Origin: Lactobacillales bacterium
Lineage (GTDB): Bacteria > Bacillota_I > Bacilli_A > RF39 > UBA660
Direction of reading: 5' to 3'
Length of the DNA: 64,000 nt
NCBI GenBank assembly: GCA_015059545.1
Contig: SVAG01000001.1
Location: forward strand, 231,381 to 295,380
Positions 4,225 through 44,169 of the stretch are shown piece by piece. The notes under the pieces are model-generated. The model was given only the letters and a program-made list of their open reading frames with translations, did not search any database and was not told the DNA's origin. Positions within the stretch are counted from its first letter, which is position 1. Each line of letters opens with the position of its first letter. Made by a program: the position numbers and the translations under genes.

Positions 4225-4252
4225 ACAAAAAAAATGTATAAATCATATTTTA
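4225..4252 (+). promoter_or_regulatory. Possible late mother-cell (sigma-K/E type) promoter of collagen-like gene
   Basis: CATATTTTA (4244-4252) fits the sigma-K -10 pattern CATAnnnTA, with AC at 4225-4226 about 17 bases upstream. No sigma-A -35/-10 pair is seen before the gene. AT-rich DNA produces such matches by chance, so this is tentative. Confidence 0.3.
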
Positions 4253-4272
4253 TATTAGAAAGGAGAATAAAT

Positions 4273-5016
4273 ATGAATGATTGTGAAAATAATAGTATAT
4301 ACAGAGATGCGTTAGAAAAAATCAAAAGAGATCAAAAATTTAAACCATCTTGTTGTATACCAATAGGAGGAACTGGAACAGTCGGACCGACTGGACCAAC
4401 AGGGCCAGCCGGACCAGCAACTATAGCAGTTGGAACAACAACTACAGGAGACTCAGGAACAGCTGCTTCAGTAACAAATAGTGGAACTGCTGAAAATGTA
4501 GTATTAGACTTTGTTATTCCAGAAGGACCAACAGGGTCAGCCGGATTAGATGGAGCAACAGGGCCAACAGGGCCAGCCGGATTAGATGGAGCAACAGGAC
4601 CAACAGGGCCAGCCGGATTAGATGGAGCAACAGGACCAACAGGGCCAGCCGGATTAGATGGAGCAACAGGACCAACAGGGCCAGCTGGATTAGATGGAGC
4701 AACAGGGCCAACAGGACCAGCCGGATTAGATGGAGCAACAGGACCAACAGGACCAGCCGGATTAGATGGAGCAACAGGACCAACAGGGCCAGCCGGATTA
4801 GACGGAGCAACAGGACCAACAGGGCCAGCTGGATTAGATGGAGCAACAGGACCAACAGGACCGGCTGGACTAGATGCACCAACTCCAACATTAACAATTG
4901 GGACAGTAACAACAGGAGATCCAGGAACAGAAGCTTCAGCTACTATTACTGGTACAGCTCCAGACTTTGTACTTAATTTAACAATCCCACAAGGACCAAC
5001 AGGACCTGCCGCATAG
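4273..5016 (+). CDS. Collagen-like (Gly-X-Y) surface protein, probable spore-surface protein
   Basis: A 247-residue protein with a short N-terminal head containing CC (about residue 33), a Gly-X-Y stretch, then nine identical 12-residue units [12 protein letters not shown] (residues 91-198). It lacks a signal peptide, as do BclA-type exosporium proteins. Two copies of another module flank the repeats: TIxxGTxTTGDxGTxAS...VIPEGPTG before, and a diverged copy after. The ATG at 4273 follows AAAGGAG; an upstream in-frame ATG at 4234 has no ribosome binding site. One base separates its stop from the next gene, a glycosyltransferase that may decorate the threonine-rich repeats. Collagen-like phage tail fibre is the main alternative. 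Confidence 0.78.
4543..4866 (+). repeat. Nine tandem 36-bp repeats encoding collagen-like units
   Basis: Nine in-frame 36-bp copies, beginning GGATTAGATGGAGCAACAGG, differ only at a few synonymous third positions. They are followed by a diverged partial tenth copy. The low divergence implies recent expansion or slippage, so copy number may vary between strains. Confidence 0.95.
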
Positions 5017-7971: not shown

Positions 7972-10101
7972 ATGAAGCTAAATAAAAAAGGATTTGTATC
8001 TACTGCAGTATTATATTCATTATTATTACTTTTTTTAGCATTAATATTAGGTTTATTAGCACTTCTTTCAAATAGAAAACAAATACTAGATAAATTAAAA
8101 GGTGACATTAAATCAGAAATAAATCAAACTAAAAATTTTACCTATTATAAAAATGGAACAGCAATATATTATAATCCTGTAACAGGTAAAATATGTGGAA
8201 ATTATAGTGAAGAAAATAGTAAGACAGGTGTAACAGAAGGTTGTTTAAAATGGTATGTCTTTAATGATAATAAAAATAGTGCAACTGTAAATATGATATT
8301 AGATCATAATACAAGTGGAAATGTTGCTTGGGCTTCATTAGAAGACTATATTGAAGTAGGTGGAACAGAAGAAGAATATGGAGAAAACGGAAAGAATATT
8401 AAAGGACCATTAACTGTAACAAAAAGATTAAATGAAGATACAGAAAATTGGAAAAATAAGGCAAGGTTAATATCAGCAGATGAAATAGCTAAAATAACAG
8501 GAGCTGCTGAAATATTAAAATGGAGTTCAAATAAAACTTATGGGACAAATATTGAAACTGAGTCATCATGGTTTTATTTAGATGGTGTAGGTACAACATA
8601 TACAGAATGGCAAAAACAAGTAGCAAACGAAACAACAAAATCAAAATATGCATGGCTTTTTGATAATAATGGTGGATGTAAAAACTATGGATGTAATTTT
8701 GAAGACAATGTTAAATATCCATATGATACAAAAGATAGTGAAAATACAAGTGCAATATGGGGATATTGGACAAGTACACCTCTTAATGGTATTTCAAAAG
8801 AATATGCATGGTATATATCAACAAATGGAAATTTAGGAAATAAACCTGTATCAATGAATGATACTCGTGGAGTTCGTCCAGTAATAACAGTATCTAAAAA
8901 AGATATATATACTCAATATAAAGAAACATTACTAAATGGAACAGATCCTGTTTATAGTGATAATTTAATACCAGTAACAATCGCAGATAATGGAACAGTA
9001 ACAAAAGCAGATACTTCAGTAGAATGGTATAAATATGAAAATAAAAAATGGGCAAATGCCGTAATATTAAATGATGAATCAAAAACATTTAATAATGGAG
9101 AAGTAATTCCAGAAAGTGATATAGAATCATACTTTGTATGGATACCAAGATACAAATATCAAATATTTGATTTAGGTACTTATGAAACATACTCAGGAAC
9201 AATTCAACCTGATGAAAATAATGCAAAAGAAATACAAATAGTATTTGAAAATAAAGGAACAGCGATTTCAAATGGTAATGCAGTTGGAGAATATTTATCA
9301 CATCCAGCATTCCAAGCATTTGATACAAACGGACTTTGGGTAGGAAAATTTGAAACAACAGGAAGTATAGATAGTTTAACAATAAAACCTAGTGTAGCAT
9401 CAATTAGAAGCCAAAATGTAAGTACAATGTTTACAAAAGCACTTGCGTATAAGCAAGAAAATAAATCACATATGATGAAAAATACTGAGTGGGGAGCAGT
9501 CGCATACCTATCACATTCAAAATACGGAATAAATAAAGAAATAAATATAAATAACAATAGTAGTTATTTAACAGGATATAGTGCAGTGGATGGAACAGAC
9601 CAATCTAAATATCCTGGAACGTATGGAACAGATTCAAGTGTAACATTAGTTTATAATACTGATACAGGATATAAAGCTAGTACAACAGGAAATATAACAG
9701 GTGTTTATGATATGAGTGGTGGAGCACATGAATATATGGCTTCATATATGGATGGACAATTAGGTAGTAGTGGATTTACAAGTGATCCAATAACAGAATA
9801 TGGAAAAGAATATTTTGATAAATATAGTAATACAAGTACATGGACAAGTTTTAATAATAGAATTTTAGGAGATGCGACTGGAGAAATGGGACCATTTTAT
9901 CAATATGCCGATGGTGATGGAACAACAAGAAATCATAATGATTGGTATGCAGACATTTCCGGCTTTGTTGACTCTTCTCGCCCTTGGTTCATCCGTGGCG
10001 GTGATTTCAGCAATGGAGTTCTTACAAGTCAGTTTTACTTTTCTAGAGCATCTGGAAGTTATGGAAATGGTGTTGGGTTCCGCTTAGTCTTAACAAAATA
10101 A
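7972..10101 (+). CDS. Prepilin-like anchored 709-residue protein with lectin-like/FGE-like C-terminal domain
   Basis: Residues 4-34 form a type IV prepilin-like head: KKGF followed by a long hydrophobic helix, but with VSTAVLYS in place of the usual TxxELL. Module A (about 55-310) has paired cysteines (KIC...GCLKWYVF), ARLISADEIAKITGA, YWTSTP and GVRPVITVSK. The same module occurs in the protein at 42523-44169. Module B (about 330-709) ends with MSGGAHEYM, RPWFIRGGDF and VGFRLVL, the pattern of formylglycine-generating-enzyme/C-type-lectin folds used as receptor domains. The enzyme's catalytic cysteines are not evident, so binding rather than catalysis is likely. The last 150 bases have a different composition. 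RBS AAAAGGGTG precedes ATG 7972. Confidence 0.75.
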   Translation: MKLNKKGFVSTAVLYSLLLLFLALILGLLALLSNRKQILDKLKGDIKSEINQTKNFTYYKNGTAIYYNPVTGKICGNYSEENSKTGVTEGCLKWYVFNDNKNSATVNMILDHNTSGNVAWASLEDYIEVGGTEEEYGENGKNIKGPLTVTKRLNEDTENWKNKARLISADEIAKITGAAEILKWSSNKTYGTNIETESSWFYLDGVGTTYTEWQKQVANETTKSKYAWLFDNNGGCKNYGCNFEDNVKYPYDTKDSENTSAIWGYWTSTPLNGISKEYAWYISTNGNLGNKPVSMNDTRGVRPVITVSKKDIYTQYKETLLNGTDPVYSDNLIPVTIADNGTVTKADTSVEWYKYENKKWANAVILNDESKTFNNGEVIPESDIESYFVWIPRYKYQIFDLGTYETYSGTIQPDENNAKEIQIVFENKGTAISNGNAVGEYLSHPAFQAFDTNGLWVGKFETTGSIDSLTIKPSVASIRSQNVSTMFTKALAYKQENKSHMMKNTEWGAVAYLSHSKYGINKEININNNSSYLTGYSAVDGTDQSKYPGTYGTDSSVTLVYNTDTGYKASTTGNITGVYDMSGGAHEYMASYMDGQLGSSGFTSDPITEYGKEYFDKYSNTSTWTSFNNRILGDATGEMGPFYQYADGDGTTRNHNDWYADISGFVDSSRPWFIRGGDFSNGVLTSQFYFSRASGSYGNGVGFRLVLTK
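9955..10095 (+). other. 3' coding segment of shifted composition, candidate DGR variable repeat
   Basis: Within the gene above, 31 of 60 bases at 9961-10020 are G or C, about twice the local level. The segment uses CGC, CGT, TTC, ATC and GGC codons that are rare elsewhere in the window. It encodes the ligand-facing end of the lectin-like fold (RPWFIRGGDF...VGFRLVL). At positions that vary in this fold, many codons end in C or T (TTC, AGC, GTT, CTT, TAC, TCT), as expected if they arose from AAC/AAT template codons by adenine mutagenesis. No reverse transcriptase or template repeat is in the window. Confidence 0.45.
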
Positions 10102-10113
10102 TATAAAAAAATT

Positions 10114-10142
10114 AAAATTATCTTAAAAAAGATAATTTTTTT
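10114..10142 (+). terminator. Terminator after large prepilin-like gene
   Basis: AAAATTATCTT (10114-10124), loop AAAA, AAGATAATTTT (10129-10139), T run. Confidence 0.88.
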
Positions 10143-10151
10143 AATGTCTTA

Positions 10152-10180
10152 TTGTAATACGAACAATTGTATATTATAAT
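10152..10180 (+). promoter_or_regulatory. Promoter of the RhuM-Doc leader
   Basis: TTGTAA (10152-10157), 17-base spacer, perfect TATAAT (10175-10180). Transcription would start near 10187, giving a leader of about 155 bases. Confidence 0.65.
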
Positions 10181-10186
10181 ATAAAT

Positions 10187-10341
10187 GTATGAAGACTTAA
10201 CTCTCCATAGTAGGGAGTGTGTATGTATTAACTTGAATATTAGTATAAGCAAAATAAATATGAAAGGAGAAGACTTTTAGTAATAAAAGTTCTAGAGTAA
10301 CAAAACATTACGCTCTAGTTATTAGAATGGAGGTAATTTTT
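10187..10341 (+). promoter_or_regulatory. Structured 5' leader upstream of the RhuM-Doc gene
   Basis: Three hairpins can be drawn: CTCC/GGAG near 10203-10217; ACTTTTA (10273-10279) with TAAAAGT (10284-10290) closed by the GNRA-type loop GTAA; and CTAGAG+TAA (10292-10300) with TTA+CTCTAG (10308-10318) around CAAAACA. No T run follows the hairpins, so they are not simple terminators. The octamer GAAGACTT occurs twice (10191 and 10270). I do not recognise a known riboswitch. The leader could be a cis-regulatory RNA or a small RNA partner. Confidence 0.45.
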
Positions 10342-11274
10342 TTGAAAAATGAAATAATAATATTTGAAAATCAAAATGTAAAATTAGAAGTAAATATGAA
10401 AGATGATACAGTATGGTTATCATTAAATCAAATAGCAGAATTATTCGGAAGAGACAAATCGGTAATTTCTAGACATTTAAAGAAATCTTTTGAAGAAGAA
10501 TTAGATGATTCAGCTGTTGCAAATTTTGCAACAACTGCTTCTGATGGTAAAACATATAATGTAGAGTATTATAATTTAGATGCTATTATATCAGTTGGGT
10601 ATAGAGTTAAATCAAAAAATGGTATTATCTTTAGAAAATGGGCTAATAAAATATTAAAAGATTATATGTTAAAAGGTTATGCTGTAAATCAAAAGAGATT
10701 AGGCTATTTAGAAAAGACAGTTAAATTAATAAATATAGCTAATAGAGTAGATGAAGAATTAAATGATAAAGAAGCTAAAGAAATACTAAAAGTAATCGGA
10801 GAATATTCAAAAGCATTAGATTTATTAGATGATTATGATCATAAAACAGTAAAAAAACAAAAAGGGAATAATAGTGATAAAAAAATAGAATACGAAGAAT
10901 GCTTAAATATTATAAATACATTAAAGTTTAATGAAAATAGTAATTTATTTGCACTAGAAAGAGATAAAGGATTAAAATCAATTATTGCAGATATATATCA
11001 AACATTTGATAATAAAGATGTATATGAAACACTAGAAGAAAAAGCCGCTAATTTATTATATTTAGTAGTTAAAGATCATGTATTTATAGATGGCAATAAA
11101 AGAATAGCAGCAACTCTATTTATATATTTTCTAAATTTTTATAATATACTTTATAAAGAAAATAAAAAATTAATAGATAATAATACATTAACAGCTTTAA
11201 CACTTCTAATTGCTCAGTCTAATCCAAAAGAAAAAGATATATTAGTTGATTTAGTAACAAATTTCTTAAATTAA
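10342..11274 (+). CDS. RhuM-family protein fused to a Doc/Fic domain
   Basis: The 310-residue product has an N-terminal RhuM (virulence protein) domain (about 1-110), with LSLNQIAELFGRDKSVISRHL as a helix-turn-helix and YYNLDAIISVGYRVKSKNG. The C-terminal part (about 175-310) is a Fic/Doc domain with HVFIDGNKRIAAT, matching the Doc-type motif HxFxDGNKR. NKR in place of NGR suggests kinase-like Doc activity rather than AMPylation. TTG 10342 is the likely start: GGAGG at 10329-10333 is correctly spaced, and the in-frame ATG at 10327 overlaps that site. Such fusions are typical of defence or toxin-antitoxin genes. No partner gene adjoins it, so the RhuM half or the leader may restrain the Doc half. 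Confidence 0.8.
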   Translation: MKNEIIIFENQNVKLEVNMKDDTVWLSLNQIAELFGRDKSVISRHLKKSFEEELDDSAVANFATTASDGKTYNVEYYNLDAIISVGYRVKSKNGIIFRKWANKILKDYMLKGYAVNQKRLGYLEKTVKLINIANRVDEELNDKEAKEILKVIGEYSKALDLLDDYDHKTVKKQKGNNSDKKIEYEECLNIINTLKFNENSNLFALERDKGLKSIIADIYQTFDNKDVYETLEEKAANLLYLVVKDHVFIDGNKRIAATLFIYFLNFYNILYKENKKLIDNNTLTALTLLIAQSNPKEKDILVDLVTNFLN

Positions 11275-42522: not shown

Positions 42523-44169
42523 ATGAAAAATAAAAAAGGATTTACACTTATAGAACTTTTAGCAGTAATAGTAATATTAGCAATAATAGCACTTATAGCA
42601 ACGCCTATTATTTTAAATATGATTAATGATGCTAGAAAAAGTGCAGCTGCAGATAGTGCATATGGATACATAGAAGCAATAGAGTATAATAACTCAATGG
42701 AACAACTTAGTGATAAATATGATCTAATATCTTCAGGAGATGTATCAACAATAAATAATATTGTGAAAGTTAAAGGAACAAAACCAACTAGCGGTAATGT
42801 TACAATAGAAAAAGGAAGAGTAGTAGCTGCCAATTTATGTATTGATGGATTTTCAGTAATATATAATGGAGAAAAGGTAACAGAAGTTACTAAAAGCAGT
42901 GAATGTGGAAGTAGTTCATCAAAAGAGGAAACAGTTTATAAAGACTATGAAATAGGTGAATTAGTGTGGTTTGATCCAGTTACTTACAAATATTGCAAAG
43001 AAGGAGATGATAATTGCTATTCATGGATAGTACTAAACAATAATAAAGAAAAACGTAATCTAGATTTGATTTTCGTTAAAGATGAAAGTTCATTACAATG
43101 GAATAAAGATTTATTAACAATTTTAAATGAATATACATCTACATGGAGTGATAAATTATTTGTAGATTCTAATTATAACCTTGAAACGTATTTTGATTAT
43201 AGTAATTCAAAAGCTAGAGTCCCATTAGTAAGTGAAATGAGTGATATAATTCATAATAAATTAAATGAAAAAGGAAGCTGCGGTGATAGCTCAATTCATT
43301 GTTTGATGGCTAATACAGGTACTGGGCATATGACTCATTTTTGGTATGTAGAAGGACAAATGAATTCAGGTGATATGATGCCATTTTCTGCAGTAGCAAC
43401 CGCTCCAACTAATTTTTATATACATCCAGTTATAAATATAGGAGCTGAAAAAAATGTTGAACCGGAAGAGGTAGATGTATATGTTAGTCAAAAAAAGACA
43501 AAATATGAAAATGGTGACATAATATATTTGGATCCTACAGATTTAACCAAAAAATGTACTGCAAAAAATTCTATAAGTAAAACTAATGAAAAAATAGGAT
43601 GTATGAAATGGTATGCATTTTTAGATAGTGAATCTTCCGAAAAAGTTAAATTGATTTTAGGACATAATACAACTGAAACAATTGTATATACATCAGATAA
43701 TGCAAGTAAAGAAATGAAAGAAATTAAAACTGAAATAGATAAATTAGTATTAGAATCAAAATGGCAATCAACGCCTAGATTAATAACGGCGGATGAAATT
43801 GTTGAAATAACAGGTGCTAAAGAAATATTATCTTGGGATTCTGAAACTGCTGGCATTGAAAAAAGATTTGATTTAGATATTGCAGTTGATTCAAGTGAAA
43901 AAGGTGATGTAAGTAAACATGCATGGTTATTTAATAATACTTTATATTGTTTAAGTAATGGTTGTGAAGTTGAAGATAATAAAAGTTATACAACTTCAAT
44001 ACAGGATAGTGTTCAAGGATATTGGACTAGTACGCCGATTGATTCTCCAGGTAATTATTATATTTGGGTTGTTAGTAATAGTAGAATGTTAACATATTCA
44101 TTTGTTAGTCAAGATTATCGTTATGGAATTCGTCCTGTAATAGAAGTAAATAAATCAGATATACAATAA
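42523..44169 (+). CDS. Large prepilin-like protein with repeated lectin-like modules
   Basis: The 548-residue product begins with a textbook type IV prepilin head, KKGFTLIELLAVIVIL, then a pilin-like region with a cysteine pair (about 95-128). Two ectodomain modules follow. The second (about 325-548) matches module A of the protein at 7972: KC...GCMKWYAF, LGHNTT, PRLITADEIVEITGAKEIL, HAWLFNN, GYWTSTP and GIRPVIEVNKSDI. The first (about 140-315) is a degenerate copy. It should be processed by prepilin peptidase and displayed on a pilus or pseudopilus. The ligand is unknown. An XRE operator overlaps its promoter. Confidence 0.78.
   Translation: MKNKKGFTLIELLAVIVILAIIALIATPIILNMINDARKSAAADSAYGYIEAIEYNNSMEQLSDKYDLISSGDVSTINNIVKVKGTKPTSGNVTIEKGRVVAANLCIDGFSVIYNGEKVTEVTKSSECGSSSSKEETVYKDYEIGELVWFDPVTYKYCKEGDDNCYSWIVLNNNKEKRNLDLIFVKDESSLQWNKDLLTILNEYTSTWSDKLFVDSNYNLETYFDYSNSKARVPLVSEMSDIIHNKLNEKGSCGDSSIHCLMANTGTGHMTHFWYVEGQMNSGDMMPFSAVATAPTNFYIHPVINIGAEKNVEPEEVDVYVSQKKTKYENGDIIYLDPTDLTKKCTAKNSISKTNEKIGCMKWYAFLDSESSEKVKLILGHNTTETIVYTSDNASKEMKEIKTEIDKLVLESKWQSTPRLITADEIVEITGAKEILSWDSETAGIEKRFDLDIAVDSSEKGDVSKHAWLFNNTLYCLSNGCEVEDNKSYTTSIQDSVQGYWTSTPIDSPGNYYIWVVSNSRMLTYSFVSQDYRYGIRPVIEVNKSDIQ

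Follow-up and report, generated by a model that had tools for sequence, protein, structure and literature searches.

The 64,000-nucleotide stretch of DNA analysed here (referred to as the window) is part of contig C6 of the source genome and carries, on its forward strand, an open reading frame for a 709-residue surface protein (7972-10101), the 3' end of which differs in composition from its surroundings. The locus raises the question of whether this end is the variable repeat (VR) of a diversity-generating retroelement (DGR) and, if so, whether it is still being rewritten and how it came to stand where it does.

Composition, fold and anchor of the 709-residue protein

By direct count, 31 of the 60 bases at 9961-10020 are G or C. 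Segments of 60 bases taken from the gene average 18.0 G/C (SD 3.9) with a maximum of 32 at 9952, and across the whole window 14 of 2132 such segments reach 31 or more. GC content is 0.431 at 9955-10098, compared with 0.291 for the remainder of the gene and 0.241 for the window; at third codon positions it is 0.333 in the 48 VR codons vs. 0.097 in the codons upstream, with third-position C accounting for 0.27 and 0.035, respectively. The initial annotation was therefore correct that this is the gene's GC-richest stretch, with codons ending in C or T, and it also placed the frame, length, and C-terminal position of the segment (RPWFIRGGDF to VGFRLVL) correctly. The template repeats (TRs) of relatives have a GC content of 0.44-0.47, and the anomaly is explained by ancestry shared with these GC-richer DGR TRs. 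Composition by itself was considered as proof of a DGR and rejected.

The segment lies at the end of a predicted binding domain with an FGE-like/C-type-lectin (CLec) fold, encoded at 8959-10098 (residues 330-709, forward strand). An AlphaFold2 model of this domain, built with 73 homologues, has a mean pLDDT of 94.9, and its top match in the PDB is TaqVP (5vf4), a variable protein of a Thermus DGR (Foldseek E 2e-10, with a modest TM-score of 0.42; Mtd and TvpA stand lower in the same list). The profile match to 5vf4 has an E-value of 1.4e-4. The family profile PF03781 scores 13.1 bits vs. a cut-off of 23.3, and the model resembles FGE proteins weakly and TaqVP strongly. A CLec/FGE-like fold, as proposed at the outset, is likely, with a model of pLDDT 95 that has TaqVP as its best match. 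A run on residues 445-709 alone gave a pLDDT of 46, because the domain was cut. The 709-residue protein probably binds a ligand and may be associated with a pilus.

The first 50 residues (7972-8121, forward strand) form a prepilin-like membrane anchor. The N-terminus has KKGF followed by a hydrophobic stretch, and the genome encodes a prepilin peptidase and a T2SSE-type ATPase; however, Glu is missing at +5, KKGFVSTA fails the GFxxxE motif, and searches of the N-terminus with Pfam N_methyl and NCBIfam returned no match. The prepilin-type anchor named in the initial annotation is suggested only.

The direct 3' neighbor of the gene, on the same strand, is a RhuM/Fic-type gene (10327-11274, Pfam Virulence_RhuM and Fic), and there is no DGR cassette at it. 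It is preceded by a leader of about 180 bases (10150-10326) that may form small hairpins, and an Rfam search of the 3' flank of the 709-residue gene found no match there. Elsewhere in the window, a collagen-like repeat protein is encoded at 4234-5016.

Adenine-biased divergence from the template repeats of other genera

A gap-free alignment of the segment at 9955-10098 (forward strand) with 19 TRs from other genera shows differences at 61-78% of the TR adenines and at 25-48% of the other bases. Against the two closest TRs, those of the relatives G015 and G133, 61-66% of the adenines differ vs. 25-27% of the other bases (p 2.5e-5 and 1.2e-4, respectively, in tests that, like all those of adenine bias here, take sites as independent). 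Pairs of TRs compared with each other as a control show the reverse bias on average (20% at A vs. 30% elsewhere), and template adenines are therefore not inherently fast-changing. When only columns conserved in at least 80% of the TRs are counted, the segment has changed at 17 of 24 adenines vs. 8 of 49 other positions (p 7e-6).

The bias is also visible in codons. Where both closest templates encode Asn, 11 of 12 codons are substituted in the segment, compared with 7 of 30 other codons, and a third base of C or T is retained in 10 of the 12 template AAY codons, in a gene whose third-position C is otherwise 3.5%. These counts support the claim that AAY template codons underlie the segment. The adenine-biased match to TRs that stand beside DGR reverse transcriptases in related genera bears out the broader claim as well, and VR ancestry of 9955-10098 can, on the sequence evidence, be regarded as established with a confidence close to certainty.

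An account without any DGR would make this an ordinary lectin domain that owes its atypical composition to horizontal transfer and its divergence to ordinary selection at binding residues. Composition alone indeed cannot show a DGR, and the differences from foreign TRs outside adenines do reach 25-48%. Against this stand the homology at the nucleotide level to the TRs of some 19 genomes, the strong adenine bias opposite to that of the TR-TR control, the third-position pyrimidine kept by 10 of 12 AAY template codons, and the placement of the segment's protein in a clade with DGR targets, so that we give this account hardly any credence. Selection could add to the divergence at template adenines, which are located in binding-residue codons, but the conservation of these adenines among TRs disfavors it as the sole cause.

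Search for DGR cassettes in the genome and in its relatives

The source genome is a draft of 1.19 Mb in 11 contigs, 93.5% complete, and a cassette could therefore sit in its missing part. Within the assembly, blastn with the VR and a search with a relative's TR both returned only the VR itself, and a degenerate TR pattern with up to 3 mismatches matched only 9955-10098. RVT_1, as a sign of a DGR-type reverse transcriptase (RT), had no match in this genome at E<=1, while a search of the family found it in 62 of 98 genomes; bAvd (PF22296) had no match in a search that was positive in G015 and G025, and no cassette remnant was seen adjoining the 709-residue gene. A DGR RT query of five genomes of the genus, two of them only 69-74% complete, also found no match, in a search without its own positive control. 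The initial annotation had staked its reading on a TR and a DGR RT in the genome, and neither is in the assembly, nor in four other genomes of the genus. A CLec-fold gene with an adenine-biased VR and without RT or TR fits an orphan (leftover) DGR target.

Cassettes are present in relatives. Of 60 related genomes, 20 encode homologs of the C-terminal domain, two genomes of 1.2-1.3 Mb carry at least 43 copies, and some copies in related genera of this uncultured Bacilli family adjoin DGR cassettes. The VR/TR pairs of ten relatives differ at 28-48% of adenines and 0-1% of other bases, and adjoin RVT_1, bAvd, and MutS_I-like ORFs. The cassette on G025:C11 has the order target with VR, TR, small ORF, Avd-like ORF, and RT, with all nine VR-TR differences at template adenines, and G015:C109 carries a TR, a MutS domain-I-like ORF (PF01624), bAvd (PF22296), and an RT (PF00078). 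The small ORF between TR and bAvd, observed at L074:369-725 and in homologs, matches MutS domain I (PF01624, E 3e-8) and is possibly an accessory factor of these cassettes. In isolate STE_87 (G133), a canonical type IV prepilin N-terminus, which scores above the N_methyl cut-off, is joined to the lectin domain in a target that has an adenine-biased, actively rewritten VR and an RT downstream; the family therefore includes a prepilin-anchored DGR target. A second type of DGR was observed at L075:528-2537 (G005:C8), where the VR lies in a GVRPVLHL-type domain of a canonical type IV prepilin and all 8 differences fall at template adenines.

In G025, G008, and further genomes of the family, the VR-bearing lectin domain was observed in at least 43 copies. 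Twenty remote copies were fetched from G025, 13 of which have a VR match. One of these (L121, 14 of 16 differences at A) and the cassette VR (9 of 9) look recently rewritten, while the remaining remote copies drift at non-A positions like an archive of frozen variants; the idea that every one of the at least 43 G025 copies is a live target was rejected, as most drift in this way. A phage origin was likewise rejected, as the target domain has no relative in IMG/VR and viral relatives of the RT reach at most 43% identity.

Cassette-resident VRs are followed by a GC-rich hairpin in 10 of 11 cases, with a 10-14 bp stem and a T-rich loop of 8-12 nt, about 50-60 nt past the VR (117 in one); loci with this hairpin downstream of VRs are L146, L148, L149, L151, L098, L100, L101, L109, L096, and L152. 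By a criterion set after the sequences had been seen, it was found in 0 of 12 TRs, 0 of 13 remote G025 copies, and 0 of 2200 shuffled sequences. It is also absent from the 709-residue gene, which is followed by an AT-rich, terminator-like hairpin with an 11-bp stem and an AAAA loop (10114-10139, forward strand), not of the GC-rich T-loop type of cassette VRs. In Bordetella phage BPP-1, efficient retrohoming requires a hairpin directly downstream of the VR (Guo et al., 2011; PMC3240598), and by analogy the T-loop hairpin may have a role in retrohoming in the Bacilli family, although a requirement there is not proven. The relative G373 has a clean A-only VR, yet its imperfect hairpin fails the strict criterion, so the missing hairpin at the 709-residue gene is suggestive only.

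These observations bear on the possibility that a DGR still rewrites the segment in trans, from a cassette located on another replicon or in the 6.5% of the genome that was not assembled or binned. The cassette contigs of relatives are short and broken at the VR/TR repeats (G015:C109, 4.6 kb; G025:C11), which makes them easily lost from bins, and remote targets are known to be served in trans in Treponema denticola and Thiohalocapsa (PMC4891356; PMC10907252). An active DGR is nevertheless improbable in our view, given that RT, TR, and Avd were not found in the assembly nor a DGR RT in the five genomes of the genus, that the downstream hairpin is missing, that non-A changes affect the CGCCTCGT motif, conserved elsewhere, at the 3' end of the VR, and that the assembly runs unbroken around the VR in a contig of 297 kb. 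With no TR, RT, or Avd in the assembly and no such hairpin downstream, the earlier picture of a hypervariable locus working today is not supported.

Origin of the lectin module and comparison with known systems

The gene order thiI-SASP-SASP-gene-TmcAL-YceD is largely kept in three genomes of the same genus (G001, G002, and G004), and G001 also has a homolog of the RhuM/Fic gene in the corresponding position. The syntenic genes of these genomes share the anchor (residues 1-50) at 60-86% identity, and the N-terminus is 86/64% identical to the syntenic gene of G001. At the C-terminus, the lectin domain is absent in G001 and G004, and G002 has a diverged FGE-like domain. Over residues 501-660, the protein shares 67-80% identity with DGR targets of SIG197 and STE_87, vs. 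28-43% with the syntenic gene of G002, and in a tree of residues 501-657 the protein groups with other genera's DGR targets (support 0.98), apart from all paralogs of G002. By this mosaic of similarity, which the sequence shows, the last ~220 residues group with the DGR targets of other genera and not with same-genus paralogs, and replacement of the 3' part via recombination with a foreign DGR target is the simplest account.

The explanation that we favor, and consider probable, is that 9955-10098 is a genuine DGR VR by descent, now orphaned, and that the lectin module was most likely imported from another genus. A TR like those still present in related genera would have given rise to the segment by adenine-specific mutagenic retrohoming, which would have rewritten the ligand-facing end of the C-type-lectin/FGE-fold domain. 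The module, probably already diversified, would then have arrived by recombination from another genus's DGR target and replaced the 3' portion of a modular surface gene that had been inherited vertically; both the direction and the time of this import are inferred. Given the lack of TR, DGR RT, and Avd in the assembly and of a retrohoming-type hairpin, the retired VR would now represent a single, fixed binding specificity carried by a surface-anchored protein that is possibly associated with a pilus.

Orphan DGR targets are already known. The precedent is T. denticola, in which isolates without RT and TR have orphan targets whose VRs are adenine-biased relative to the TRs of other isolates (PMC4891356), and multi-VR DGRs have also been described (PMC6642488). 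Such leftovers lend some weight to a different history, in which the lineage's own full DGR cassette served the gene and was then lost, without any import of the domain, as do the target copies without an RT in the relatives G011, G020, G026, G027, G033, and G034. However, the syntenic genes of the three same-genus genomes lack the module or have a different one, the 3' part of the gene groups with other genera, and no cassette remnant adjoins the gene, which leaves loss in place rather unlikely.

The 709-residue gene shares several features with the TvpA-type targets of T. denticola (PMC4891356), namely an FGE/C-type-lectin fold (modelled here), a C-terminal VR, Asn template codons, many targets per genome, and orphans that differ from foreign TRs mostly at template adenines. 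The targets of T. denticola are mostly predicted lipoproteins, whereas the anchor here is prepilin-like and the host belongs to an uncultured Bacilli family; unlike them, the VR-bearing module here looks imported into a syntenic modular gene. TaqVP, the Thermus aquaticus variable protein (PDB 5VF4; PMC6328139), is the closest solved structure by profile and fold and also has a C-terminal VR on a CLec fold, but identity is about 14-15%, and TaqVP is part of a DGR, while the present search found no cassette. The cassettes of the relatives resemble the Mtd/TR/Avd/RT system of BPP-1 (PMC3240598) in their VR-TR-Avd-RT arrangement and in having a GC-rich hairpin directly after the VR only. Their hairpins have 10-14 bp stems and T-rich loops of 8-12 nt, in contrast to the 4-nt GRNA loops of phage DGRs such as BPP-1, and unlike BPP-1 they add the MutS domain-I-like small ORF. 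None of these cassette features (VR-TR-Avd-RT array, GC-rich hairpin, MutS-like ORF) is present at the 709-residue gene.

With heterologous TRs and a TR-TR control, a VR can thus be recognized in a cassette-free genome, and a DGR is linked to a large adhesin family, not named before, of uncultured Bacilli with small genomes. In the literature searched, which was mostly open-access, we found no description of this lectin adhesin family, its prepilin-fused members, or the T-loop hairpin, the novelty of which is unproven. More tentatively, and with some doubt on our part, DGR-less lineages of the family may acquire pre-diversified lectin modules by recombination with DGR-carrying relatives and display them on a modular anchor as fixed specificities, with the result that the DGR of one genus generates binding diversity for neighboring genera. 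If modules do move between genera once diversified, DGRs would supply binding diversity to non-carriers.

Between the anchor and the lectin domain, the protein has a middle domain (residues 51-312; 8122-8907, forward strand) that ends in GVRPVITVSK and has paralogs in the same genome. One of these, at 42523-44169 of the window, is fused to a canonical type IV prepilin, and the product is likely another pilus-borne adhesin. On contig C7, L011:12987-15364 encodes two tandem paralogs of the middle domain with a sortase-like NPQTG anchor at the end, which would be the same middle binding module on a different anchor.
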